Positions 28,987 through 40,131 of a stretch of DNA of 40,294 nt are shown here, piece after piece (position 1 is the first letter of the stretch; each line of letters begins with the position of its first letter). The notes below the pieces were generated by a model. That model ran no database searches and was not told where the DNA came from. It saw only the letters and a list, made by a program, of their open reading frames with translations. Position numbers and translations under genes: made by a program. The stretch is from Lachnospiraceae bacterium A4 (GTDB lineage Bacteria > Bacillota > Clostridia > Lachnospirales > Lachnospiraceae): positions 3,442-43,735 of the forward strand of contig KE159527.1 in NCBI GenBank assembly GCA_000403215.2. Reading direction: 5' to 3'.

Positions 28987-29144
28987 TGTTCTCTTCTCCT
29001 TTTTATACATTTTGCTTTTCAATGCTGTTTAAGCTTTTTCGCTTTTAAACAGTCTCTAACTATCATTGTACCACAAAATCATGATATGAAAACCCCCAAG
29101 TATCACATTTTTATTTCAAGTTCTCTTCATTCAATCCGCTCCTT

Positions 29145-29188
29145 CAAAAAAGCAGGTTTACAGTGTATTTTCTGCAAACCTGCTTTTT
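29145..29188. terminator. Terminator beyond the cotJC 3' end
   Basis: AGCAGGTTT (29151-29159) and AAACCTGCT (29176-29184) flanked by A-run and T-run on opposite sides, so it works in both directions. It lies about 60 bases after the cotJC stop and would end the intact cotJABC message before fprA. Confidence 0.75.
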
Positions 29189-29243
29189 GTTTCATGTGTA
29201 GTTCTATCCGTCAGCGATGCTTGTGTGAAGCTCTGTCTTATGT

Positions 29244-29327
29244 TTATTTGTCAAACTCAGGGTTGAACGCATAGAAATTGCGGGCATCAAGATTCTCCTG
29301 TGCGATGCGCAGGGCTTCACCGAAACG
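29244..29327 (-). pseudogene. cotJC: cotJC 3' fragment, separated by the integrated element
   Basis: 27 codons and a stop, beginning RFGEALRIAQENLDARNF and ending with NPEFDK. This is the C-terminus expected for CotJC-type manganese catalases and is the continuation missing from the gene at 37988-38557, which breaks off after HFQRFGEA. Both pieces carry the 14 bases CGTTTCGGTGAAGC in the same codon phase, so joining them gives one frame of 198 codons. Here it has no start or ribosome site. Frames continue upstream from it across the end of the toxin gene but only by chance. Confidence 0.9.
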
Positions 29328-29344
29328 GGAGGATTGAAGTAAAT
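29314..29344. other. Attachment site at the recombinase-proximal end
   Basis: Core GCTTCACCGAAACG (29314-29327) followed inside the element by GATTGAAGTAAAT (29332-29344). That arm is the inverted match (12 of 13) of ATTTACTACAATC near the other end. It ends exactly where the toxin stop codon begins. Confidence 0.8.
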
Positions 29345-29686
29345 TTATCTGTTGATTTTCTGCATTTTCTTGATAATAGATTGCCAATACATGCGGTCTT
29401 TCAAGACCCGGATTACCGTAATGGTGGAATCCTCCACAACAAAGAAGATTAAATATGTACTGTAGGGCTTGAAATAAATGCTCAATCCCTCAATCACATA
29501 TCCCGTAGCTTCATAGCCTTTGGGAAAGGAATCCAGCTCTTTGATAGCCTTCTTTATCTTCTTTGAAAAGTTCTCCGCATATTCACGATATTTGAATGTG
29601 TCGAGAATATACTTTTTAGTTGATTTAATATCCCAAAGCGCGTCCTTGGATATTACGATTTTATATTTCTCTGGTTTGTCTGGCAT
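29345..29686 (-). CDS. ParE/RelE-type toxin
   Basis: 113 residues of the ParE/RelE fold: KIVISKDALWDIKSTKKYI, then a helical hairpin and the C-terminal strands KPYSTYLIFFVVEDSTITVIRVLKDRMYW, typical of the plasmid-stabilisation branch. Members inhibit gyrase (ParE) or cleave mRNA (RelE); which applies here cannot be told. Its ATG shares one base with the stop of the antitoxin gene (TAATG), so they are translationally coupled. Its stop lies against the att arm, so it is the outermost gene of the element; it probably selects against element loss. Confidence 0.85.
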   Translation of the reverse strand: MPDKPEKYKIVISKDALWDIKSTKKYILDTFKYREYAENFSKKIKKAIKELDSFPKGYEATGYVIEGLSIYFKPYSTYLIFFVVEDSTITVIRVLKDRMYWQSIIKKMQKINR

Positions 29687-29856
29687 TATATTTTGTCAAT
29701 TTCCTCCCATGCTTCATCAATCGTATAAACATCGCCTTTTTTCAGACTTTCTATTCCCTTGGAGAGTTCATCATATAATGCGCCTATGGCTGCTTTTTCG
29801 GAATATTCGGTTTTTAGGATTTCTTGATTTCTAACTGCCTGTGCCGCAGGTGCCAT
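29686..29856 (-). CDS. Antitoxin of the ParE-type pair
   Basis: 56 residues starting MAPAAQAVRNQEILKTEYSE, with an acidic C-terminus (TIDEAWEEIDKI) of the kind that wraps a ParE/RelE toxin. The start at 29856 is chosen because AAGGGAAG stands before it; an ATG at 29874 overlaps that site. Short antitoxins of this sort usually bind their own promoter by the N-terminal part, but no ribbon-helix-helix pattern is obvious here. It overlaps the toxin start by one base. Confidence 0.8.
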   Translation of the reverse strand: MAPAAQAVRNQEILKTEYSEKAAIGALYDELSKGIESLKKGDVYTIDEAWEEIDKI

Positions 29857-29964
29857 AGTATCACTTCCCTTCACTGTTTTCTTTATTATACGGTATTTAG
29901 TATTGGTGTATCAACAGATTTTTATTAAATTTTCCTCAAAACTGTGTGGCATAGACTTTCATGG

Positions 29965-31473
29965 TTAAATGTTCCAAGTAATCTCAATGTTTCCGTCTGC
30001 AATGCGAATAACTTTGATAAGCGTATCAACTACCGCCTGTCTGTCCTCGAAAGAGAGCGTTTCCCATGTTTTCACATGATTGGTGATCTGTTTCAATCTG
30101 CCCTCTGTGTCTGTGACATTTGCCGTAATGATTTCTTCCTGCAAGGCTTTTCGTTCTGCGTCCAGTTCCGATACTTTTTCGTCTATGTACTTCATCAGAA
30201 CGCCGCTTGCCCCGGACACTTTGGAGAGAAGTTCTTCGATTTCTTCCTCAATCTGTGTCAGACGGATTTTTTTCGTCATATACTTTTGTTCTTCTCCTGT
30301 TTCAGATAGACAGGAAAGGTTTTGAAACTCCGATAGTCTTTCTTTAATTGCGACAAGCATATATTCTTCCAAAACGTCCGCATAAACCGTACAACCCGCC
30401 CCGGTGCAGTTGCTTCCACGGCTTCCCGACTGGCTGCAAACAAAGTAACGTCCCCACCTTGTTTTTGCCTTGCGGATTGTCAGCGCATAACCGCATTTGC
30501 CACATTTTACCTTACCAACAAGCCATGAATTTTTCGGCTTGCAAGTCTTTGTTGACTGTCGGTTATTTAGACACCGTATGCGGCAGGCTAACCATGTCTT
30601 AGAGGGGATAAACCCCTTATGCGGCGCAAGCACAATCTCTTTGTCGGATAAATCACTCTGCTTTCTTGAAGTGGACACCGTACCCTTGTAGAGATAGCAG
30701 GCATTGTAACCCGTAAAATCACTTGCCGGGTTATAGATGTTAGCGCCTTGACTTTGGAAAAACTGATACACGTCAATATCGGCTTGCACATACACGGGAT
30801 TGCGGAGCATTTCACTGATACGGGCGGTATTCCAGTTTGCGCCGCGCAGATTTTTAATCTGATGTTCGTTCAAGTACCGCACAATATCCCCAAGGGAATT
30901 GCCCGTGTCCGCATACATAGAGTAAATCAGCTTTAGCTGTTCGCTTTCCTCCGGGACTTCCTCGTACATGGACGTGCGGATATTGTCAATGACCGTGTTC
31001 GTCAGACGGTAGCCGTAGGGGATACGTCCGCCCATGTAGAAGCCGCGCTTGCACCGTGCATAATAAGCGTCCGTTACGCGCTTTTGTATAGTTTCCCGTT
31101 CCAGTTGGGCGAACACGATGCAGATATTTAACATCGCCCTGCCGATCGGCGTGGACGTGTCAAATTTTTCCGTGGAAGAAACAAACGCCACATGATATTT
31201 CTGAAATATCTCCATCATGTTTGCAAAATCCAAAATGGAACGGCTGATACGGTCGAGTTTGTAGACAATAACCCGTTTGATTTTTCCTGCGCGAATATCG
31301 TTCATCATTTTTTCAAAGCCTGGACGGTTGGTGTCCTTGCCCGAAAAGCCTTTGTCTGTATATTCAATGCAGGCTTCCCCGTGGGTTTCGTATCTGCAAT
31401 ACTCAAGCTGGCTTTCTACGGATATGCTGTCCTTTTTTTCGATTGACTGTCTTGCATATAATGCGTCGTACAT
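29965..31473 (-). CDS. Large serine recombinase
   Basis: 502 residues. The N-terminal resolvase domain has the nucleophile Ser10 in YARQSIEKKDSISVESQ and the KLDRISRS motif near residue 75. A recombinase domain follows with GGRIPYGYRLTN and ISEMLRNPVYVQ, then a zinc ribbon (KCGKCGYALTIR ... CSQSGSRGSNC) and a coiled-coil segment near residues 390-460. Enzymes of this class integrate and excise elements between short att sites, staggered by two bases. It is near one end of the element, as expected for an integrase. ATG 31473 has AGGAGG upstream. Full length, no stops, so probably active. Confidence 0.93.
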   Translation of the reverse strand: MYDALYARQSIEKKDSISVESQLEYCRYETHGEACIEYTDKGFSGKDTNRPGFEKMMNDIRAGKIKRVIVYKLDRISRSILDFANMMEIFQKYHVAFVSSTEKFDTSTPIGRAMLNICIVFAQLERETIQKRVTDAYYARCKRGFYMGGRIPYGYRLTNTVIDNIRTSMYEEVPEESEQLKLIYSMYADTGNSLGDIVRYLNEHQIKNLRGANWNTARISEMLRNPVYVQADIDVYQFFQSQGANIYNPASDFTGYNACYLYKGTVSTSRKQSDLSDKEIVLAPHKGFIPSKTWLACRIRCLNNRQSTKTCKPKNSWLVGKVKCGKCGYALTIRKAKTRWGRYFVCSQSGSRGSNCTGAGCTVYADVLEEYMLVAIKERLSEFQNLSCLSETGEEQKYMTKKIRLTQIEEEIEELLSKVSGASGVLMKYIDEKVSELDAERKALQEEIITANVTDTEGRLKQITNHVKTWETLSFEDRQAVVDTLIKVIRIADGNIEITWNI

Positions 31474-31510
31474 TCTATCTACCTCCTAAAACGTAAGACG
31501 CATATCCACA

Positions 31511-31527
31511 AAACGATCATATCGTTT
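31511..31527. promoter_or_regulatory. Palindrome upstream of the recombinase
   Basis: AAACGAT-CAT-ATCGTTT, a perfect 7-bp inverted repeat 38 bases before the recombinase ATG and after the 59-residue gene. It could be an operator or a weak hairpin; no T-run follows. Confidence 0.4.
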
Positions 31528-31549
31528 CCATGATTGTTTTGCAAGGGAC

Positions 31550-31729
31550 TTACGCATATTTCTTAAAAATCTGATAGAGCCTTGCCCCGATTTCCTGCCG
31601 GGCTTCCTGTTCTGATTTTTTCTGAAAGGCGGGGTAGATGTTGGTAACGGTCAGCCTCATTTTATCTATGGAAAGATTTTCCATGCGTATTTGGGTATCG
31701 GGTGTAGGAGAGTTATTTGTTTTTGACAT
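31550..31729 (-). CDS. Small element-encoded protein of unknown function
   Basis: 59 residues: MSKTNNSPTPDTQIRMENLS, then IDKMRLTVTNIYPAFQKK and a basic/acidic helical tail ending IFKKYA. It has AAAGGAG seven bases before the ATG. The form recalls the small proteins next to recombinase genes in clostridial integrative elements. It lies 76 bases before the recombinase in the same direction and is a reasonable candidate for a regulator or excision factor, but that is inference. Not in the usual open-reading-frame size range, and easy to miss. Confidence 0.65.
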   Translation of the reverse strand: MSKTNNSPTPDTQIRMENLSIDKMRLTVTNIYPAFQKKSEQEARQEIGARLYQIFKKYA

Positions 31730-32310
31730 AAACTTTCTCCTTTGACGGTTTCCCTAAATTTTATGAGAAGCGGCAAGTACACTATACGGGAATAGCGTAA
31801 ACTCCCCCCTCTACTACTTACTACGCACGGGAGGTAAAAAATGGCAAAGTTTTTTTGAAATTTTATAAAAAGTTTAGAATAGCGGAATAGCAAGCATAGG
31901 GATTGAGTACACAATCCCGAAAAATTCTCTATCTTTATGAGAAGTGACGTATAGAATTTTTATTTGGTGGGAAGTTTCCCAAACCCTTATAGAAAAACGA
32001 AAATGGAAAACAAATACAGACATAGAACAGGAGCAAAAAACGTTTTAAGGGCATTTTCGGGGCAATTCGTGAGCAGGCAGGGATTACCCATTACCGCCCA
32101 TAAAAGGGCTTCTAAGCGTCCATAAGGGCAGAAAAAGATATCTGAGATTAAATGATAACATGGAAGCGGGCGTAATCTCCATAGGTTCAATTTGTATATA
32201 ATCAGATATTGCCGTTATGATTTTGTCAATCATTTTTTCTTCTTGTTCGTTAAGTGTCAGTAGTAACAATTTTCCCACGTTACCACCTCCCGGTATGCGG
32301 TTGTCTTTCT
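31730..32310. other. Gene-poor stretch with a truncated gene start
   Basis: About 580 bases. Only 32084-32278 looks coding. The remainder shows AT-rich sequence with short translation fragments in several frames, as expected for decayed plasmid or transposon genes. No terminator or promoter could be placed securely. Confidence 0.45.
32084..32278 (-). pseudogene. Truncated small gene, N-terminal part only
   Basis: GTG start at 32278 with an excellent GGAGGTGG site. The first 38 residues (KLLLLTLNEQEEKMIDKIIT ... YIQIEPMEI) look like a real soluble protein; after them the sequence turns into low-quality reading (RYLFLPLWTLRSPFMGGNG), suggesting a frameshift or deletion junction. Family not recognised. 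Confidence 0.35.
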
Positions 32311-32469
32311 AAGGAACTGTTCAGAAATTACTTGTGACAAGAACGCCGCATAAATGTTCAGCTGCAAAGAAGAAAATCGCAGGCATAGCGGGCTATGTCA
32401 AGATTTTCTGATGCAGCAGATGGACATTTAGGCAAGTTCTTGTCATGAGTAATTTCTGAATAGTTCCTA
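32311..32469. repeat. MITE-like palindromic repeat of about 158 bp
   Basis: The ends are AGGAACTGTTCAGAAATTAC (from 32312) and its near-complement ending at 32468; the match runs about 33 bp with 3 mismatches. Inner segments also pair (GAAAATC near 32372 with GATTTTC near 32402; CATAG with CTATG around the centre), so the whole element can fold into one long hairpin. No coding capacity. It overlaps the stop codon of the MATE gene at 32467, whose TAG is part of the repeat. Size, absence of genes and long terminal repeats fit a non-autonomous MITE. Confidence 0.7.
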
Positions 32470-33798
32470 ATTACATTTTATTGTTCTGTGATAAATAAAA
32501 AATGAAATAATGGCGGTAATAAATTCAGCCACCCAAAAAGCATTCCATACGCCAACTGCGCCAAAAAGTCTGCCAAACAAAAATGCGGACGGAATGGTAA
32601 TGATAATATAACGGCATAGAGAAATAATTAATGACGGCATACCCTTTCCTAATCCCTCCAGCGCACCTGATGAAGTGACAGAAACAGCTGAAACAAGAAA
32701 GCCTGCGCTAATAACACGGAGTGCAATTTCCCCGGTATGAATTGTTTCCGGCACATGAGTAAACAGGTTTATTAGTTGACCGGGAATGAGCAAACAAATA
32801 ATAGTGCCTAAAACCATAATTACGCTGCTCATGCAAAGAACAATATTATAAATTTCCTTAACACGCTTTTGTTCACCAGCTCCATAATTATAACCAATTA
32901 AAGGGCGCATTCCTTGAATGATACCATTAGCAGGAAGATATAGGAAAGTCTGCAATTTATAATAAATTCCTAAAATTAAAATATATACCTCTGAATATGA
33001 GGATAGAATGGAATTTAGCGCTGAAATTAAAACGGACGGCAAAGCCATATTTAAAGTTGCGGGTATACCAACAAAATACAGTTTAAAAGCTGTTTTTTTA
33101 TCAAAAGTAAGAAATTGTCTGCTAATGCGAATACGAATAGGGCGCACAAAGTAGATAACTAAATAGATAGCAAGCGTTATTGTCTGTCCAATGCCGGTTG
33201 CCAATGCTGCTCCCTCTATTCCCATTGCGGGGAAAAAACCAATCCCAAAAATAAGCACCGGGTCTAAGATAATATTTGCGATACACCCACACATCATACT
33301 TATCATAGTTACTTTCATATTACCTACGGCTTGGAATATTTTTTCAAATGTTCCGCCTAAAATAATGATAAAAGTAAAAGAAAAGGCTATAACAGAATAT
33401 CGAATACCGAAATCAATAACGGGTTCTGATGATGTAAATACTCTTAAAAAAGTTGGAATAATAGAAATTACACTAACGGTAATAACGATACTATGTATCA
33501 CAGCAAATACCATGCCTTGTGTAGCTGCCATATTTGCCCTTGAATATTCTTCTGTACCCAAATAAAAAGCTATTGCTGCGTTAATTCCTATGGCAAAGCC
33601 AATAGCAACAGCATTGATAAAATTCTGAACAGGAAAGACTAATGACAATGCCGTCATAGCGTCCTCACTAATTTGGGCTACAAAAAAGCTGTCTACAATG
33701 TTATATAAAGAATTTACCAACATTGAGAGTACCATAGGAAGTGACATTGATAAAATTAATGGCAATACAGGTTTTTCTTTCATAAATTTTTCGTCCAT
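32467..33798 (-). CDS. MATE family efflux transporter (intact)
   Basis: 443 residues, 12 membrane segments, two related halves. Typical features: PLILSMSLPMVLSMLVNSLY at the N-terminus, SEDAMTALSLVFPVQNFINA, VLIFGIGFFPAMGIEGAALA and GMRPLIGYNYGAGEQKRVKE. MATE proteins export cationic drugs or metabolites with Na+ or H+. GGGAGGA lies before the ATG. It is the last gene of the MATE-GNAT-MATE operon and is closely related to the interrupted first MATE, suggesting duplication. The long MITE-like palindrome lies on its 3' end. Confidence 0.9.
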   Translation of the reverse strand: MDEKFMKEKPVLPLILSMSLPMVLSMLVNSLYNIVDSFFVAQISEDAMTALSLVFPVQNFINAVAIGFAIGINAAIAFYLGTEEYSRANMAATQGMVFAVIHSIVITVSVISIIPTFLRVFTSSEPVIDFGIRYSVIAFSFTFIIILGGTFEKIFQAVGNMKVTMISMMCGCIANIILDPVLIFGIGFFPAMGIEGAALATGIGQTITLAIYLVIYFVRPIRIRISRQFLTFDKKTAFKLYFVGIPATLNMALPSVLISALNSILSSYSEVYILILGIYYKLQTFLYLPANGIIQGMRPLIGYNYGAGEQKRVKEIYNIVLCMSSVIMVLGTIICLLIPGQLINLFTHVPETIHTGEIALRVISAGFLVSAVSVTSSGALEGLGKGMPSLIISLCRYIIITIPSAFLFGRLFGAVGVWNAFWVAEFITAIISFFIYHRTIKCN

Positions 33799-33840
33799 TT
33801 TAATTCCTCCCTTAATTTGCTCACATAAAAAAACGTGTAT

Positions 33841-34248
33841 CTATTTGTTTGTCATAAAACAAATAGGATTTTTTGTAAAACCAAAAGGTTCATAAAATTT
33901 TTCTGCATTTTCGGTTATCAGCATTCCTAACAATGGTTTTAAATCTTCATTTTCCGTAATTGTTTTAAGAAGCTGCCTGCCTATCCCTTTATTACGAAAT
34001 TCTTTTTTTACAACTACATCACAAATGTAAAAATGCGTTGCATAATCAGTAATCACTCTGGCAAATCCAACTTGTTGTCCGTTTTTTGTAAATGCACCGT
34101 AGCAGATTGAATGATTGAATGATTTGATGATAGCCTCTTTTTTTCGGTTTTTCGCCCATACAGTTTGCCTTAAAAGATTTACTACCTCTTTTGGGGACAT
34201 ATTTTCAACCCCCGTTTTAATTGTATAAGATGTATCTTCCTTGTACAT
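33841..34248 (-). CDS. GNAT family N-acetyltransferase
   Basis: 135 residues. The acetyl-CoA loop is VVKKEFRNKGIGRQLLKTI (the Q/RxxGxG/A motif as RNKGIG), with YICDVVV before it and a final AEKFYEPFGFTK segment. It moves an acetyl group from acetyl-CoA to an amine; the substrate is unknown, though in a cassette with efflux pumps a small toxic compound or drug is plausible. GGAGG precedes the ATG; it starts two bases after the stop of the first MATE gene, so they are coupled. Confidence 0.88.
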   Translation of the reverse strand: MYKEDTSYTIKTGVENMSPKEVVNLLRQTVWAKNRKKEAIIKSFNHSICYGAFTKNGQQVGFARVITDYATHFYICDVVVKKEFRNKGIGRQLLKTITENEDLKPLLGMLITENAEKFYEPFGFTKNPICFMTNK

Positions 34249-34250
34249 TT

Positions 34251-35612
34251 TTATTTACCTCCAACTATATCTTTATTATTATTTTGAAATCTCAATCTCA
34301 TAAATAGAATGACTGCTGCAACAAACGTCAATAATTCAGTAACTGGAAATGCAATCCAAATACCAATGATTAGTAATGCTTTTTCTAAAATCCACATAAT
34401 AGGTATCAAAAAAAACATCTGTCTAAATATTTGTATCATAATGCTTGGCAACACTCTTTCAATCGCTTGCATATAAGTCGAAATCATTGTCGAAAGCCCG
34501 CAAAATAAATAACCTGTTGCCATAATCCGCATTGCCATAATCCCATAAGAACGCATTTTTTCCGAAGCCATAAACAAACTCAAAATCTGTGTCGGAAACA
34601 GCATGATAATTAATGTTCCAAACATCATTAGAGAAGTTACTAAAATTGTACTGTATCGAAAAACTGATTGAAGCCTTTTTAAATTTCCTGCTCCATAATT
34701 AAATCGCATAATGGGCAAACAGCCTTGTATTAATCCATTAATAGTCATAATAATTAACTGCTGTATTTTAAAATATGCTCCCAAAAAAGCAATGCTCGTA
34801 TCTGAATATGCGACTAAAAACAGATTTACAATCGTTATGGTAAAAGCGTTTAGGGCATTCATAATAAAAGAAGGCAGCCCTAAAATAATTATTTTTTGTA
34901 CAATGCTCCATTCAAAACGAAATCCAACTGTTTTAAGTGCTATTTTATGTTTTGCTTTTAAAAACATAATAAATGCCAAAACCATTGAAACAGAATATCC
35001 CAAAACTGTTGCCGTAGCAGCTCCTTTAATACCCATTGCCGGGAAAAAACCTATTCCAAAAATAAGAAGTGGGTCAAAAATGAAATTGGTTATAACACCC
35101 GTCAGTTGAAACAACATGGGTTCAATCATGTTCCCGGTTGCCTGTATCATTTTTTGAATAACGATATGAACCATGTTTGGTATCTGCATAAAAGAACAAA
35201 TACCCATATACTCCATACACAAAGTATAAATATCGTTATTTTCAGTAAACGATTTGAAGTATGGGGATATAATTAGTAATACCGTTATATTTAAAATAAT
35301 GCCAACCAAAAAGGAAAGGATCAGCCCAAGAGTGACCGTTTTATTTGCTTCTTCCTGTTCGCCTTTTCCAAGATGTCCCGCAATTAGGACATTGATACCA
35401 ATCCCAATTCAAATAGATACCGCGTTCATTAATGTTGTGATTGGAAAAGACAGCGAAACAGCCGTTAATGCGTTCTCGCTTAACCGGGCAACAAAAGCAC
35501 TGTCTAACAAATTGTATGAATATTGAAGAAACATGGAAAATAGTGGCGGTAACGACATTTCAAAAATCAGCTTTCCAACTGGCAGAACTGCCATTTTATT
35601 TTCTGCCATCAT
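34251..35612 (-). pseudogene. MATE efflux transporter broken by one UGA codon
   Basis: The two parts, 35612-35409 and 35309-34251, lie in one phase and together make a normal 453-residue MATE protein. The only defect is a TGA at 35411-35409 in the segment AVSI*IGIGINVLIAGHLG, where a Gly (GGA) would be expected, so a single G-to-T change explains it. No frameshift. GGAGG stands before the double ATG at 35612/35609, and a leader reading frame overlaps it. A downstream start (near 35309) could still make a C-terminal piece. Probably inactive; GNAT and the second MATE downstream remain intact. Confidence 0.8.
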
Positions 35613-35734
35613 ATATCCTCCAAAATTTGATAAACCTTTTCCGGAATGATAACAACAAAAAACCACACAGTTATCAAACTGATAACTGTGTGGCAAAAAG
35701 ATGACATATCAATCCGGAAAAGTCCACTCAACAT
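35609..35734 (-). CDS. Possible leader peptide of the MATE operon
   Basis: 41 codons starting MLSGLFRIDMSSFCHTVISL and ending ILEDI. The frame runs through the terminator hairpin and its TGA overlaps the MATE ATG (ATATGATG), which would couple termination of one to initiation of the other. No strong ribosome site precedes the first ATG; the internal ATG (MSSFCH) is an alternative. The peptide itself resembles nothing known. Confidence 0.4.
   Translation of the reverse strand: MLSGLFRIDMSSFCHTVISLITVWFFVVIIPEKVYQILEDI
35657..35693 (-). terminator. Attenuator-type terminator in the MATE leader
   Basis: On the minus strand CCACACAGTTATCA, a 3-base loop and TGATAACTGTGTGG (a perfect 14-bp stem), then TTTTTT, lie between promoter and first gene. 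An outer inverted repeat encloses it: CTTTTCCGGAATGAT (35636-35650) with ATCAATCCGGAAAAG (35708-35722), 14 of 15 matching. A terminator ahead of the coding region implies transcription is normally stopped and relieved by a signal, as in several antibiotic-resistance leaders. Confidence 0.7.
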
Positions 35735-35745
35735 TTTACAAGAAA

Positions 35746-35774
35746 ATATTATAAGGAATTTTTTCGCTTGTCAA
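35746..35774 (-). promoter_or_regulatory. Promoter of the MATE-GNAT-MATE operon
   Basis: TTGACA (35774-35769), 17 bases, TAATAT (35751-35746), an excellent sigma-A promoter. Transcription would start near 35739, just ahead of the leader frame and hairpin. Confidence 0.75.
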
Positions 35775-35817
35775 TAGTTTTTTAGAAATGTTAAGTTTAC
35801 TGGTGAGTTGTAAGTTA

Positions 35818-37427
35818 CTTATGAGTTGAAAGTTCTCAATAAAAAAAATAACCCTTTCGTATGGATTTATGGTATCTTTAAGTTGCAACACTTAAGAAAG
35901 ATATAAACCACTGAAAGAGTTATTTCATGTATGAGTTTACCATACTTTCCAGTGGTTAACCATACGATTATGATGAATTTTATTGAAAATGTTTTATGCC
36001 ACTTTGAATCCTGTTTTTCCCGCAAGGTTGCTTTCCGCTGGTTTGTAACCATTATCATAGGGCTTATGCTCCGTTCAGATAAACTTGGTGTCACTTCTGT
36101 CATCCGTGACCTTGCACTAAGTCCGGGCTGCTATGATTCCATGCTGCATTTTTTCAGGGCATCCTCATGGTCGTTGGAGGAAATCCGTAAACGTTGGTTC
36201 TCCGCTGTCAGGCTGTATGCTCCCCTCTATAGGGAGGGGAACTACCACGTCCTTGTGGGCGACGGGGTGAAGCAGTCCAAGGAAGGGCGCCGTATGCCAG
36301 GGGTGAAAAAGCTGTTCCAGGAATCCGAAAACTCCGCAAAACCGGAGTACATCCATGGGCATATGTTCGGTGGTCTTGGCATCTTAGCCGGAAGTGTACG
36401 GAATTGGGCCTGCATTCCTTTGAGTATCCGGCTCCATGACGGCCTGCAGGCTGCCATGGAGTGGAAAGGCGCATCTGTTTCTGAGGCTTCCCATGTGGTG
36501 CAGATGGTGGAAGATGCTTATCGCGCAGCCCTTACTTTTGGGAATTCCCTGCTCTTGCTGGACAGATATTTTCTTACTGTACCGGCACTTGAAAAGCTGA
36601 AATCCCTCAACGGCAGCGGGGATGTACACATGGAGATCGTCACCAAGGCCAAAAAGTCCTGTACCGCATTTGAAAGGCCAGGCCCCCGCAAACCCGGAAG
36701 GGGACGGCCTGCCAAAAAAGGAGCGGCTGTCCACCTGAAAGAACTGTTCGCTTCACGCGGGGGACAATTCCAGAAAACGGAGATTGAACTTTATGGAAAA
36801 AGGGAATCCATCCGTTACTACTGCATTGACCTGTTATGGGGGCAGAAGCTGTATCAGGAACTGCGCTTCGTCCTGGTGGAAATGAATGGCGTCCAGGGCA
36901 TCCTTGCAAGCACCAGCCTGGAGCTGGATCCGCTGTCCATCATCCGGCTCTACAGCTACCGGTTCCGGATTGAATGTACATTCCGCGAACTGAAGCAGCA
37001 GATTGGGGCGTTCTGTTACCACTTCTGGTCAAAGTACATGCCGAAGCTAAGCTACTACCAGAAGAAAGGGGAGCCTACGCCCATGGAGAGGGTGGAAGGT
37101 GAAAAACCCCGCCAAAAAGTGTTGGAAGCCGTTCGTGCCATTGAGATGCACATGGCACTGTCCTGTATTGCAATGGGAATTCTGCAGAGCCTTTCTATCT
37201 GCTTTATTGGGAAGGTTAGTTCTAGCCAGATCCGTTACCAGAGGACACCTTCCCAAGGAAGGGTTTCGGAAGCCACCCTTATGTACTACTTCCGAAAACA
37301 TTTTTTCCGCCTTTTGGCGCAAAAACCCGAATTATACATAACGCGAATAATTCAGAGGCTACAGGAAAAGTCAGAAGAACAATGGGATTTTCTGGCTTCT
37401 TAGTGGTACAAACTTTCAACTGTCAAG
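35818..37427 (+). mobile_element. IS4-family insertion sequence, complete (about 1610 bp)
   Basis: Ends CTTATGAGTTGAAAGTT (35818) and, inverted at the right, CTTGACAGTTGAAAGTT (37427 leftwards), 14 of 17 matching. The left boundary is confirmed by the second copy at 40200, identical over all 95 visible bases while flanking sequence differs. No clear target duplication was found. A sequence resembling the IS end (GAGTTGTAAGTT, near 35804) lies just outside the left end. It inserted between the MATE promoter and the HTH gene. Confidence 0.85.
35931..37403 (+). CDS. IS4-family DDE transposase
   Basis: 490 residues, intact. Catalytic Asp in VLVGDGVKQSKEG, second Asp in LLLLDRYFLTVP, and Glu within the IS4 signature Y-2-R-3-E-6-K in YSYRFRIECTFRELK. 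A basic, Gly/Pro-rich insert (GPRKPGRGRPAKKG) lies between the last two. It cuts and pastes the element through its terminal repeats. Only a weak purine-rich site (GAAAGAG) lies near the ATG. It is the only plus-strand gene in the integrated element. Confidence 0.92.
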   Translation: MSLPYFPVVNHTIMMNFIENVLCHFESCFSRKVAFRWFVTIIIGLMLRSDKLGVTSVIRDLALSPGCYDSMLHFFRASSWSLEEIRKRWFSAVRLYAPLYREGNYHVLVGDGVKQSKEGRRMPGVKKLFQESENSAKPEYIHGHMFGGLGILAGSVRNWACIPLSIRLHDGLQAAMEWKGASVSEASHVVQMVEDAYRAALTFGNSLLLLDRYFLTVPALEKLKSLNGSGDVHMEIVTKAKKSCTAFERPGPRKPGRGRPAKKGAAVHLKELFASRGGQFQKTEIELYGKRESIRYYCIDLLWGQKLYQELRFVLVEMNGVQGILASTSLELDPLSIIRLYSYRFRIECTFRELKQQIGAFCYHFWSKYMPKLSYYQKKGEPTPMERVEGEKPRQKVLEAVRAIEMHMALSCIAMGILQSLSICFIGKVSSSQIRYQRTPSQGRVSEATLMYYFRKHFFRLLAQKPELYITRIIQRLQEKSEEQWDFLAS

Positions 37428-37446
37428 TATTTTATATATTTATATT

Positions 37447-37917
37447 TTATTGCATTGGTTTTCCCTGCGTTGGAAAATCCAATGTTGGATTATCCGGGGT
37501 AGGATTTTCCACGATTGGATTATTGTCATAGCTGTCATTCAGCCTTGGGGAAGAATAGACTGTATATTCCATTTCCCGAAGCAATCCCTTTTCATCTCGT
37601 ATTCTGTTGTGGGTAATATATCCTGCCTGCTCCAGTTCGTGTATAATCGTTGTAATAGCGTCTAACCCCTCTTTGTTGATATAAGCTAACCCTTGCAGGG
37701 TAAAATTCCATTCTGGGGGCAATGAGAGCATTTTACAGAGCAATCCTTTTGCCCGTAGGGATAACTGGCGGTTGCGTAAGTGGGTATTTCCGCGAGCAAC
37801 GAGTCAAAGTCAAGCTGGCTTGACCTTGACGACTGCCGCGAGAGTCGAATGCCCAAGGGGGATTCGACATGGCATGATTGTATAATCTTTGACTTTTTCT
37901 GCTCTGAATACTGGCAT
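37447..37917 (-). pseudogene. Plasmid/integrative-element HTH replication-type protein, disrupted
   Basis: The start MPVFRAEKVKDYTIM at 37917 (AAAGGA upstream) and the continuation NTHLRNRQLSLRAKGLLCKMLSL from 37788 belong to a helix-turn-helix protein family common on clostridial plasmids and conjugative elements; winged-helix residues follow (WNFTLQGLAYINKEGLDAI). Between them lie 84 extra bases (37789-37872) with two in-frame TGA codons. The C-terminal PDNPTLDFPT repeat region ends at a stop 20 bases from the IS4 copy and looks shortened. The protein is probably not made. Confidence 0.7.
37789..37872. repeat. 84-bp double-hairpin insertion in the HTH gene
   Basis: On the minus strand it consists of GTCGAAT...ATTCGAC and then a longer hairpin in which GTCAAGGTCAAGC pairs with GCTTGACTTTGAC, extended by CGCGGCA against TTGCTCGCG. 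It separates codons that are adjacent in the family and is a multiple of three. Compact hairpin insertions of this type are usually dispersed repeats; other copies cannot be tested here. Confidence 0.6.
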
Positions 37918-37987
37918 AATAGGCTTGTCCTTTCTTTTTGTGCAAAAGCCGAAGTCCACAGCTTTGAGGGGCGTGTGGATATGCGTC

Positions 37988-38557
37988 TTAGTGATTTTTG
38001 TGTTTCGATTTACTACAATCTTTCCGATTTGCTTCACCGAAACGTTGAAAATGCACAATCTCCCGCGCGCGTAAGAACCGGATTGGATCGCAGACATCAG
38101 GGTCTTTGACCAGACGGAGGATATTGTCATATGTCGTCCGTGCCTTCTGCTCTGCTGCCATGTCCTCTGTCAAATCTGTGATCACATCACCTTTTGACTG
38201 AAATTCACAGGCATTGAACGGAATGCCGCCTGCCGCCTGCGGCCAGAGCGCAAGAGTGTGGTCCACATAGTATTTGTCAAAACCAGACTCCTTGATTTCC
38301 TCTGGCGTGAGATTTCGCGTCAACTGGTATACAATTGCGCAGATCATCTCGAAGTGGGCAAGCTCTTCTGTGCCGATATCTGTCAATACGCCCGCCACTG
38401 TGTTATAAGGCATCGTGTACCGCTGGGCAAGGTAGCGCATAGACGCCGCGAGCTCGCCGTCTGGTCCTCCGTACTGACTGATAATAACCTGTGCAATCTG
38501 CGGATTGGTCTGGGTAATTTTTACTGGATACTGTAATCTCTTTTCATAATTCCACAT
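37988..38557 (-). CDS. cotJC: Spore coat protein CotJC, manganese catalase family, 3' end replaced
   Basis: 189 residues as it stands. The ferritin-like core is visible: VIISQYGGPDGELAASMRYL, then IGTEELAHFEMICAIVYQL with the metal-binding ExxH, and CDPIRFLRAREIVHFQRFGEA with a second ExxH. After FGEA the sequence should continue LRIAQENLDARNF, but reads NRKDCSKSKHKNH and stops; those 13 residues come from the integrated element. The missing end is at 29244-29327. CotJC is a mother-cell spore-coat protein with catalase-type fold. Its ATG overlaps the cotJB stop. The changed protein may keep the metal site, so partial function cannot be excluded. Confidence 0.9.
   Translation of the reverse strand: MWNYEKRLQYPVKITQTNPQIAQVIISQYGGPDGELAASMRYLAQRYTMPYNTVAGVLTDIGTEELAHFEMICAIVYQLTRNLTPEEIKESGFDKYYVDHTLALWPQAAGGIPFNACEFQSKGDVITDLTEDMAAEQKARTTYDNILRLVKDPDVCDPIRFLRAREIVHFQRFGEANRKDCSKSKHKNH
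38008..38044. other. Attachment site at the HTH-gene end
   Basis: Element-side arm ATTTACTACAATC (38008-38020), then ten bases, then the core GCTTCACCGAAACG (38031-38044). Joined to the other element end it gives a 28-base gap between arms with TC (GA on the minus strand) exactly at the centre, the form expected for a large serine recombinase attP. Confidence 0.8.
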
Positions 38558-38841
38558 TAGTTATAGCCTCCTTCCCACGGCCAATCCTGCGTGGCCCATT
38601 TCCATTCCCTGCTGTCCATGTCTGTGATACTCAGTACAAGAGGTCCATACTTTTCGGTATAATCCTTTACCATTTTGTTCTTGAGTGTATTAAATTGTCC
38701 GAACCGCTCCATCGCCTGCTGGTCATAGGGATGAGTGTCAAGATAGAGATTCAGCTCCTTCAACACAAAATCCACCTTACTGATTTCCTGTAAAAGTTTC
38801 TGCCGTTCTGAGTCCATACAAGGTTTGCATCCTGCGTTCAT
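38557..38841 (-). CDS. cotJB: Spore coat protein CotJB
   Basis: 94 residues. Characteristic sequence: LLQEISKVDFVLKELNLYLDT, then PYDQQAMERFGQFNTLKN and a final WKWATQDWPWEGGYN. Second gene of cotJABC, a mother-cell operon whose products are laid into the inner coat; biochemical role of CotJB is unknown. An N-terminal CKPC could bind metal. It overlaps the end of cotJA (ATGA) and the start of cotJC, so the three are translationally coupled. Confidence 0.92.
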   Translation of the reverse strand: MNAGCKPCMDSERQKLLQEISKVDFVLKELNLYLDTHPYDQQAMERFGQFNTLKNKMVKDYTEKYGPLVLSITDMDSREWKWATQDWPWEGGYN

Positions 38842-39011
38842 CCTTTCACTCTCCTCCCTAAAAATGGTTTGTTGAGTTCTGGGAAGATCGTACCTGTCTT
38901 AAACGCTTCATCGAGATTTTCGTACATCGTACAAGTTCTCTGCCAAGGTACATATGCCATTGCCACGGGAAACTGCTCTACATATGGCATCTGTGGTTTC
39001 CATTCCTGCAT
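38838..39011 (-). CDS. cotJA: Spore coat associated protein CotJA
   Basis: 57 residues from MQEWKPQMPYVEQFPVAMAY, with PWQRTCTMYENLDEAFKTGTIF and a basic end GRRVKG, as in CotJA proteins. The start at 39011 is set by AGGAGCGG seven bases upstream; the frame is open to 39131 but overlaps the CPBP gene and shows no similarity there. First gene of the cotJ operon. A sporulation sigma-E promoter would be expected in the 67 bases before it; I could not identify one convincingly. Confidence 0.9.
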   Translation of the reverse strand: MQEWKPQMPYVEQFPVAMAYVPWQRTCTMYENLDEAFKTGTIFPELNKPFLGRRVKG

Positions 39012-39078
39012 ATCTGTACCGCTCCTTGTTCTTTTTTCATAGTTATTATCATAATATGTCAGATTTGAGGGAATGCTA

Positions 39079-40131
39079 CTATGAAAACTCTTCTTTCCGA
39101 CGAAATGGCTTTGCAAACAAAAACATGCCAAAAATCAATCCATTCACGATAAATGACATCAACAGCTCTCCCCATGTAAGCGACTGGTTCTCAAATACGC
39201 TGGCTGTATAAACGCCAGAGACAATCGGAACGAGATTATTGGTCAGATAGTGCAGTATCACTGGAACCCAGATATTTTCTGTTTTCATATAAGCATAGGC
39301 AAAAAAGATGCCAAGCGTGATGCACGTAATCTGCTGTGACAGTACCATCAGCAATTGACTGTCCTGTGTATAGTAAAATAAATCAACCGGCAGATGCCAG
39401 ATGCCCCACACGACGCCGAGCAGAAGCACTCCGCCCCGCATACCAAAACGCTTCTGCATCAAGGGCTGTAGATAATACCGCCACCCGTATTCTTCACCGA
39501 AAAACGCAGTGAACCCAAAAAAGAAATTCACTGGAAGCGCCGCAAGCATCAGCCATGTATTCGGATTCTTCGCAATCATGCCAAAAGCGCTGATCTGTCC
39601 ACTCCAAAGGACTACGAGCACTGTTCTAAAGAGATAAACCCCCACAAACAAAACAATGCAAAACCATGATGCCGCGCTCTTGTTCCAGCACAATCCATAC
39701 GATCTGCGCTTTTCCTTCTTTGTCAAAAGCAGGAGAATCCAGCACGCGATGCTTGCGCCGATAATAAGCACCTGCTGCATCAGCGTCCACAATGAAACTG
39801 GCATTCCCATATAAAATACCATTGCATAAGGCTGAATCACCGATAACACTGCCGCCGCTGCCAATATTACTGTCACACAGCTCAAAAATATAAAAAACAC
39901 CTTTGGAACCAGCGCATCCCCCTTTTGGGTAAACAGCACGCCCAGCATCACCCCCGCCGCCGGATAATACATTTGCGCATTTGGAAACGTGCTCAGGTCA
40001 TAGTGCCTGCTGCTGCCATACCACATGAGCAGCCCCATCAAAAAAGTGACGCCATAGGCGGCTGCAAGATAGATTTTCAGTCTCTTTGCTTCCTGATCTG
40101 ATTTCTTATTTAAATCTTTAACGTCTCTCAT
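39079..40131 (-). CDS. CPBP family intramembrane metalloprotease
   Basis: 350 residues, about eight membrane segments. Motifs of the CPBP (Abi/CAAX-protease) family: FFGEEYGWRYYLQPLMQKRF with the EExxxR pair, GVVWGIWHLPVDL with the metal-binding His, and FAYAYMKTENIWVPVILHYLTNN. Such proteins cleave peptide bonds in the membrane; bacterial members have roles in bacteriocin immunity and signalling, here unknown. It ends 67 bases before cotJA on the same strand and may be co-transcribed. The IS4 copy at 40200 lies 69 bases upstream of its start. Confidence 0.88.
   Translation of the reverse strand: MRDVKDLNKKSDQEAKRLKIYLAAAYGVTFLMGLLMWYGSSRHYDLSTFPNAQMYYPAAGVMLGVLFTQKGDALVPKVFFIFLSCVTVILAAAAVLSVIQPYAMVFYMGMPVSLWTLMQQVLIIGASIACWILLLLTKKEKRRSYGLCWNKSAASWFCIVLFVGVYLFRTVLVVLWSGQISAFGMIAKNPNTWLMLAALPVNFFFGFTAFFGEEYGWRYYLQPLMQKRFGMRGGVLLLGVVWGIWHLPVDLFYYTQDSQLLMVLSQQITCITLGIFFAYAYMKTENIWVPVILHYLTNNLVPIVSGVYTASVFENQSLTWGELLMSFIVNGLIFGMFLFAKPFRRKEEFS

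Follow-up and report, generated by a model that had tools for sequence, protein, structure and literature searches.

Sporulation genes described as split by an intervening element include sigK, spsM, spoVFB, spoVR, gerE and yabG. Here we describe an element of this kind in the spore-coat gene cotJC of Lachnospiraceae bacterium A4, within a 40,294-nucleotide stretch of contig KE159527.1 (assembly GCA_000403215.2) that is referred to below as the window. The gene is cut in two by an element that carries a large serine recombinase and in which no phage structural genes were found, and we propose, with a probability of about 0.7, that this element is excised in the sporulating mother cell and that CotJC is thereby restored. 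A search of openly licensed papers found no report of a split cotJC, just as the preliminary description of this sequence had known of none. In the nearest accounts, phi027 and phiCDKH01 of Clostridioides difficile are described as integrated beside a CotJC-like/manganese-catalase gene (PMC11222575, PMC12122855, PMC8270841), so that in C. difficile, too, this gene family is encountered by mobile elements.

Among the described systems, gin in gerE of Bacillus cereus ATCC10987 is likewise a non-phage element in a sporulation gene, with serine recombination, short shared ends and an in-frame join; however, gin carries three recombinases in 28.6 kb and its excision has been demonstrated together with an extra factor, GirX (PMC5595907), whereas the element in cotJC, a Lachnospiraceae host gene, carries one recombinase in 8.7 kb and its excision is proposed. 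The skin elements in sigK of C. difficile and Bacillus subtilis also have a serine recombinase inside a split mother-cell gene, but they are described as prophage-like and split a sigma factor that controls the programme (PMC5025042), whereas here a structural coat gene is split and no phage structural genes were found in the window copy. The skin of C. difficile has a small directionality factor, CD1234, of 53 amino acids (aa) (PMC10747680), and the cotJC element has a candidate of 59 aa. SPbeta in spsM likewise rebuilds a spore-envelope gene, although it is an active prophage (PMC4191935), and yin in yabG of Clostridium botulinum likewise combines a split spore gene with a serine recombinase and a putative small directionality factor, although its authors describe it as a prophage unique to one strain (PMC10747680), in contrast to the cotJC elements, which are widespread and occupy several positions. 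TnpX-type clostridial transposons belong to the same recombinase superfamily, as a match to a TnpX structure chain shows. Because no phage structural gene was found in the window's element, it appears to resemble gin more than skin or SPbeta. What sets the cotJC case apart is the target itself, the small size and non-phage character of the elements, and the fact that separate recombinase groups use several positions.

The interruption of cotJC in the window is confirmed as first noticed. The 5' part of the gene consists of codons 1-176, which are genuine, followed by 13 foreign codons read into the element; the break follows HFQRFGEA, and the missing 3' end, up to the stop codon, lies at the far side of the element, so that the coordinates, the break point and the distant 3' end claimed in the preliminary description are all borne out (Table 1). 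Both ends carry the 14-bp repeat CGTTTCGGTGAAGC in the same codon phase. A search of the window allowing 1 mismatch found only these two copies, each exact, with a core-to-core distance of 8,717 bp, while two matches to the repeat occurred in 0 of 100 dinucleotide shuffles. When the flanks are joined at the repeat, a single 198-codon CotJC frame results, as had been predicted, with the peptide HFQRFGEALRIAQ across the join. An unbroken cotJC in a congener (L082) provides the empty allele: the joined window model aligns with it gap-free across the join over 1,135 bp (88.8% identity), and the two proteins are 99% identical. The changes between them are 68 synonymous and 0 nonsynonymous in the 5' part and 10 and 1, respectively, in the tail, counts that would be consistent with function. 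The preliminary description had considered that relatives might have a cotJC that naturally ends NRKDCSKSKHKNH, or that a second intact copy might exist. The unbroken relatives compared end like ...RFGEALRIAQENLDSRNFYAFNPEFDK and none ends NRKDCSKSKHKNH, and in the window genome (40 contigs, 97.65% complete), which encodes SpoIVA, no cotJC was found beyond the two pieces.

Mother-cell excision would best explain this arrangement. In the mechanism that we propose, the large serine recombinase would integrate the element at a conserved stretch of cotJC (the HFQRFGEAL codons), and the gene would stay split during growth. Once sporulation begins, in the mother cell, which does not pass on its genome, the recombinase and a directionality partner, for which a 59-aa open reading frame (ORF) is the candidate, would recombine the attachment sites attL and attR. 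The element would exit as a circle, leaving a restored 198-codon cotJC for coat assembly, and the germ line would retain the element.

Whether the split gene is still used was addressed in one genus in which cotJC is split at this site in all five genomes examined and no other copy was found. Of 12 split genomes checked overall, 10 showed no unbroken copy. Three species of this genus (L064, L065 and L068, all recorded under the prefix of a single study) have in common a 7.7-kb element that encodes a LytTR regulator, ABC transporters and the recombinase (genes read on the L064 copy), while L044 and L045 carry more divergent recombinases. The main collinear blocks of the trio span 13.4-21.6 kb at 92.6-93.5% identity, and joint inheritance of the element with its host fits these data, because the ranges of synonymous divergence (dS) overlap between element genes (0.10-0.34) and flanking genes (0.04-0.42). 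The three pairs show 29, 34 and 37 synonymous differences in the 5' part of cotJC (176 codons), as against 2, 1 and 3 nonsynonymous ones; for the tail (24 codons, with no start codon of its own), the corresponding counts are 6, 3 and 5 against 0, 0 and 0. All 7 variable sites of the trio's tail are synonymous, an outcome that none of 20,000 simulations with 7 random changes each reproduced. Across five species of the genus, variable codons number 12 synonymous and 1 nonsynonymous in the tail and 98 and 12 in the 5' part. By these counts both parts of cotJC are under strong purifying selection in the trio, and purifying selection on the recombinase is weaker (ratio of nonsynonymous to synonymous divergence 0.17-0.22). 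Such a pattern, the start-less tail included, fits a gene that is put back together for use, the simplest route being excision in the mother cell during sporulation. Possible loss and regain of the element within species sets a limit on this test of selection, as do the common record prefix of the trio and the more divergent recombinases of L044 and L045.

The recombinase was scanned against one genome per species in 84,980 species, and 80 of 101 relatives were kept. cotJC sequence was matched in 76 of these 80, and occupied alleles recur in many genomes; the skin-like split proposed for this single locus is thus supported and proves more general. An open cotJC tail lies within 5 kb downstream of the recombinase at 70 of 81 loci (window included), and 7 further loci are at cotJC in other ways: in L026 and L034 the sequence ends before the tail and the 5' part is present, in L047, L055 and L075 the recombinase stands in reverse orientation beside the 5' part, L077 is masked by N, and L069 is taken up below. 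The two cotJC pieces are 2.5-9.1 kb apart in the 30 loci showing both, element lengths being visible only at loci whose 5' part is no more than 10 kb away from the recombinase. Of 85 recombinase frames, 4 of which come from genus genomes, 76 run cleanly over their full length, contig ends truncate 5, and the other 4 (L023, L066, L077 and L124) are broken or masked. At L124 (G034:C11, 1245-7021), the recombinase lies in two frames, cotJC is unbroken on the upstream side, and downstream there is a relic of the tail whose core has decayed; this may be a natural repair that followed the loss of the recombinase. The MATE-GNAT stretch of the window recurs at 97% identity in L006, L016 and L019, whose cotJC diverges far more, and in 8 of 325 pairs (26 loci) recombinases that differ by at most 5% reside in cotJC genes that differ by more than 20%. 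Because such recent-transfer pairs exist, yet recombinase and cotJC distances are correlated over the same 26 loci (Mantel r 0.35, p 0.0095), the elements seem to combine movement between hosts with long periods of residence.

The att sites were compared in 40 attL-side and 76 attR-side rows, a few of which represent different recombinases or come in pairs from a single genome. attB corresponds to the conserved cotJC codons around HFQRFGEAL, and attP in most rows of the window's group reads TTTACTTCAATCYTCC-CGTTTCGGTGAAGC-AAACCGGGAAGATTGYAGTAAA, with arms that are inverted repeats around the core (folding z = -2.4 for the window attP as a single strand). The arms deviate in some loci, including L055, L112, L048 and the L044/L064/L065/L068 group. 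Crossover probably takes place at the central GA of GGTGAAG, because in L003, L023, L053 and L054, four loci whose target is not cotJC, the shared sequence stops at GGTGAA. Four further sites with an 11-bp core in the window genome have unrelated surroundings and are neither attB nor attP.

Breaks in cotJC are also found elsewhere along the gene. A cotJC match is present in 37 of the 38 genomes of the window's genus, unbroken in 13 and in pieces in 24 by our own reading; in a sample of 150 genomes of the family, nearly one per genus, at least 101 have a match, and among these at least 46 have split or partial copies and 34 lack an unbroken copy among the matches listed. Some of the partial matches in both sets are contig ends. 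Both complementary pieces are present in at least 24 of the 150 genomes, or at least 23 without G059, with the window's split in addition; G059 was rejected as an element split, since no element lies between its pieces and a frame change or sequencing error would account for them. Its locus (L149, G059:C11:1-5000) holds cotJC in two adjoining frames. Breaks fall near codons 31, 62, 136 and 178 in at least 18, 17, 10 and 9 genomes, respectively, as binned manually from the matches listed. A serine recombinase frame was identified in 24 of the 38 stretches examined, mostly beside the break; among the other 14 are distal ends of long elements and pieces truncated by contig ends. The grouping of these recombinases follows the position of the break: L117 and L133 at codon 31; L113, L120, L130, L134 and L144 at codon ~62, with a separate group there comprising L119, L126, L132, L138, L139 and L147; L115, L141 and L145 at codon 136; and, at codon 178, the window's recombinase with L140, L142, L143 and, more distantly, L121. 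Two elements occupy a single cotJC in L020, L048 and L070 (codons 136 and 178), in G001 (62 and 178) and in L006 (near 30 and 178). The gene stands in three pieces at L020 (93-12250), L048 (3610-11633) and L070 (176-11637), and L136 (G076:C68:13000-18670) holds two tandem cotJC 3' parts (codons 59-197), 3.5 kb apart.

Based on these findings, we put forward, as a proposal that could equally well prove right or wrong, that in Lachnospiraceae and related bacteria cotJC serves as a permanent site of programmed DNA splicing. Five or more recombinase groups (at codon ~31, two near 62, at ~136 and at ~178), each matched to a conserved stretch of its own, would keep the gene split vegetatively, with up to two elements seen per gene, and the mother cell would remove all of them before the coat is made, in the manner of self-splicing DNA introns in a gene of a cell that leaves no descendants. 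One coat gene is struck here by several distinct recombinase groups at several positions. If the proposal is confirmed, sporulation with programmed DNA excision would be widespread among these gut bacteria. They would then offer numerous natural replicates in which to study why mobile elements take up residence in genes of the mother cell, together with a collection of compact recombinases whose att sites are defined.

Control of excision by the mother cell may be reflected in ATAGTGTACTTGCCGCTTCTCATAAAAT, which precedes the small ORF and the recombinase. The motif ATA-N15-18-CATA[AC]A[ACT]T, chosen after the alignment had been viewed and counted over loci that are related to one another, is present in 60 of 80 loci compared with 25 of 3,555 random stretches. 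For C. difficile, sigma-E promoters are described with an ATA -35 box, CATATTAT as a canonical mother-cell -10 box and a more classical spacing of 16-18 bp (PMC3789822). Upstream of cotJA in the window there is likewise a -10 box of mother-cell type, CATATTAT, and CATAWWAT or CATANNNTA lies upstream of 36 of the 41 cotJA genes listed, compared with 95 of 1,640 random stretches (5.8%). The 59-aa ORF has a homologue within 420 bp upstream of the recombinase in 67 of 76 loci and matches no Pfam or PHROG family; its size and charge fit the description of directionality factors (PMC5025042), and it is the best candidate for that role. The name TnpW, considered for this small ORF, was abandoned, as Pfam gives no match.

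In addition to the after-the-fact choice of the sigma-E-like motif, several observations weigh against mother-cell excision. Mother-cell motifs are not enriched at 20 more distant cotJC recombinases (sigma-E 1/20 and sigma-K 1/20; controls 63 and 70 of 2,400); in the window's group the spacer is conserved like the boxes, which is unusual for a promoter; and L003 and L023, which lie at other targets, carry the same sigma-E-like motif. These two loci, together with L053 and L054, have the same recombinase group and att arm outside cotJC. An attP junction, as expected of an excised circle, was found in 0 of 397 family assemblies, a weak test since just a part of them are carriers (a codon-178 break in at least 9 of the 101 matched genomes), and the attP pattern was found neither in viral contigs nor in 153 loci. 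Several elements have moved between hosts so recently that their interruptions are too young for a test of selection, and in the trio the dS of the recombinase (0.18-0.25) is below that of the cotJC 5' part (0.29-0.40), which leaves room for some exchange of elements after the hosts diverged. Finally, our own reading of L069 shows a cotJC 5' part accompanied by a decayed tail.

Such observations could mean that cotJC is no more than a safe landing site, where loss of CotJC is cheap and ordinary mobile elements leave the gene broken. B. subtilis mutants without this coat protein are described as having no apparent defect (PMC12122855), the 8 pairs of similar recombinases in dissimilar cotJC genes imply that insertion can be recent, and the tail of L069 has decayed; however, a gene left broken would not be expected to show strong purifying selection on both parts, start-less tail included, in a trio with a shared element, nor would one expect all five genomes of that genus to be split without another copy, and we regard this possibility as unlikely. 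It is also conceivable that the element repeatedly enters and leaves cotJC within species under no developmental control, selection acting during the empty periods. The signs of horizontal movement, the presence of both unbroken (13) and broken (24) alleles among the 37 matched genomes of the window's genus and the somewhat lower dS of the trio's recombinase are compatible with cycling, but the divergence of element and flanks overlaps in the trio, and with five of five genomes occupied in that genus there would be few empty carriers on which selection could act, which makes cycling quite unlikely.

Excision would be unneeded if a truncated CotJC of about 180-189 aa worked without its last 22 residues, as could be supposed from the rarity of stops in the 5' parts (1 of 38 examined, in L006, which is split a second time; 7 more have alignment gaps). 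Yet a dispensable tail would decay, whereas all changes in the trio's tail are synonymous and 0 of 72 recognised detached tails has a stop, a count in which similarity-based recognition favours intact tails and which stands beside the decayed tail of L069; a working truncated protein therefore seems very improbable. Many of the relatives are metagenome bins, and the shared prefix of the trio records might likewise raise the suspicion of an assembly or binning artefact; however, both window junctions lie within one contig, the att arms agree across many assemblies, and the structure recurs in strain or isolate records (L006, L013, L067 and L073), so that an artefact is hardly credible. Mother-cell excision of the element thus remains the reading that we prefer.

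From the cotJC 5' part to the tail, the window's element consists of a replication-initiator-like fragment, an insertion sequence, a MATE/GNAT/MATE cargo, the 59-aa ORF, the recombinase and a ParE-type toxin with a putative antitoxin (Table 1). The large serine recombinase, which the preliminary description had called intact, has indeed an open frame with resolvase, recombinase and zinc-ribbon domains, and the solved chains that resemble it include TP901-1 integrase, SPbeta YokA (9dxh, 5.4e-14) and TnpX (2mhc, 6.5e-09). Its distance to the tail is 626 bp, compared with 14-1,497 bp in 66 of 68 loci measured. Against PHROGs, none of the 10 element ORFs matched phage structural, packaging or lysis genes, the matches obtained being to integrase, acetyltransferase, replication-initiation and unknown-function families, and no relaxase, coupling protein or conjugation ATPase was found in the window ORFs scanned or in 7 ORFs of the L064 element, smaller ORFs being unscanned. 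A prophage and an integrative and conjugative element were both rejected on these grounds, and a mobile, non-phage gene-intervening element is the best explanation. No relatives of the recombinase were found in viral contigs, and Rfam at the gathering threshold gave no family in window positions 29000-39400.

Table 1. Features of the cotJ operon and of the element that interrupts cotJC, in window coordinates
Feature	Position	Strand	Evidence
cotJA, first cotJ operon gene	38838..39011	-	Pfam CotJA 7.1e-18
cotJB	38557..38841	-	Pfam CotJB 1.3e-27
cotJC 5' part	37988..38557	-	Pfam Mn_catalase 1e-47; unbroken alleles of relatives
attL: cotJC half-site, 14-bp core (38031-38044), attP right arm	38009..38056	-	Repeat search and att-row comparison
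98-aa fragment, replication-initiation-like, at left end	37447..37743	-	PHROGs 4.3e-07; Pfam HTH_36 below cut-off
Insertion sequence within the element; transposase 35931-37403, imperfect 24-nt terminal repeats	35811..37434	+	NCBIfam IS701_3 below cut-off; Pfam DDE_5; inverted repeat
MATE transporter, frame broken into 35409-35696 and 34251-35309	34251..35696	-	MatE matches in both pieces
GNAT acetyltransferase, cargo	33841..34248	-	Domain scan
MATE family transporter, cargo	32467..33798	-	TIGR00797 5.8e-61, above cut-off
Predicted sigma-E-like promoter, ATA-N17-CATAAAAT, preceding small ORF and recombinase	31758..31785	-	Conserved in 60/80 loci
Basic 59-aa ORF directly upstream of recombinase, candidate directionality factor	31550..31729	-	Conservation; pI 9.7
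Large serine recombinase, open 502-aa frame	29965..31473	-	Pfam PF00239, PF07508, PF13408; PHROG integrase 3e-96
62-aa ORF, probable antitoxin partner by position only; no family match	29686..29874	-	Position
ParE-type toxin of toxin-antitoxin pair	29345..29686	-	PF05016 4.2e-09
attR: attP left arm TTTACTTCAATCCTCC, core (29314-29327), start of cotJC half-site	29304..29343	-	Repeat search and att-row comparison
cotJC 3' part to stop, no own start codon	29244..29327	-	Unbroken alleles of relatives

The transposase of the insertion sequence occurs in 1 of 81 loci, the window itself. A perfect 17-nt inverted repeat pairs the recombinase leader (31494-31510) with the attL end (37974-37990); it is complete in 2 loci (also in L013) and 9-11 nt long, near chance, in other relatives, and no complementary changes supporting it were found in other loci. 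A further inverted repeat, with 33-nt arms that are 91% complementary and 91 nt apart, lies at window positions 32312-32468, between the cargo and the recombinase module.

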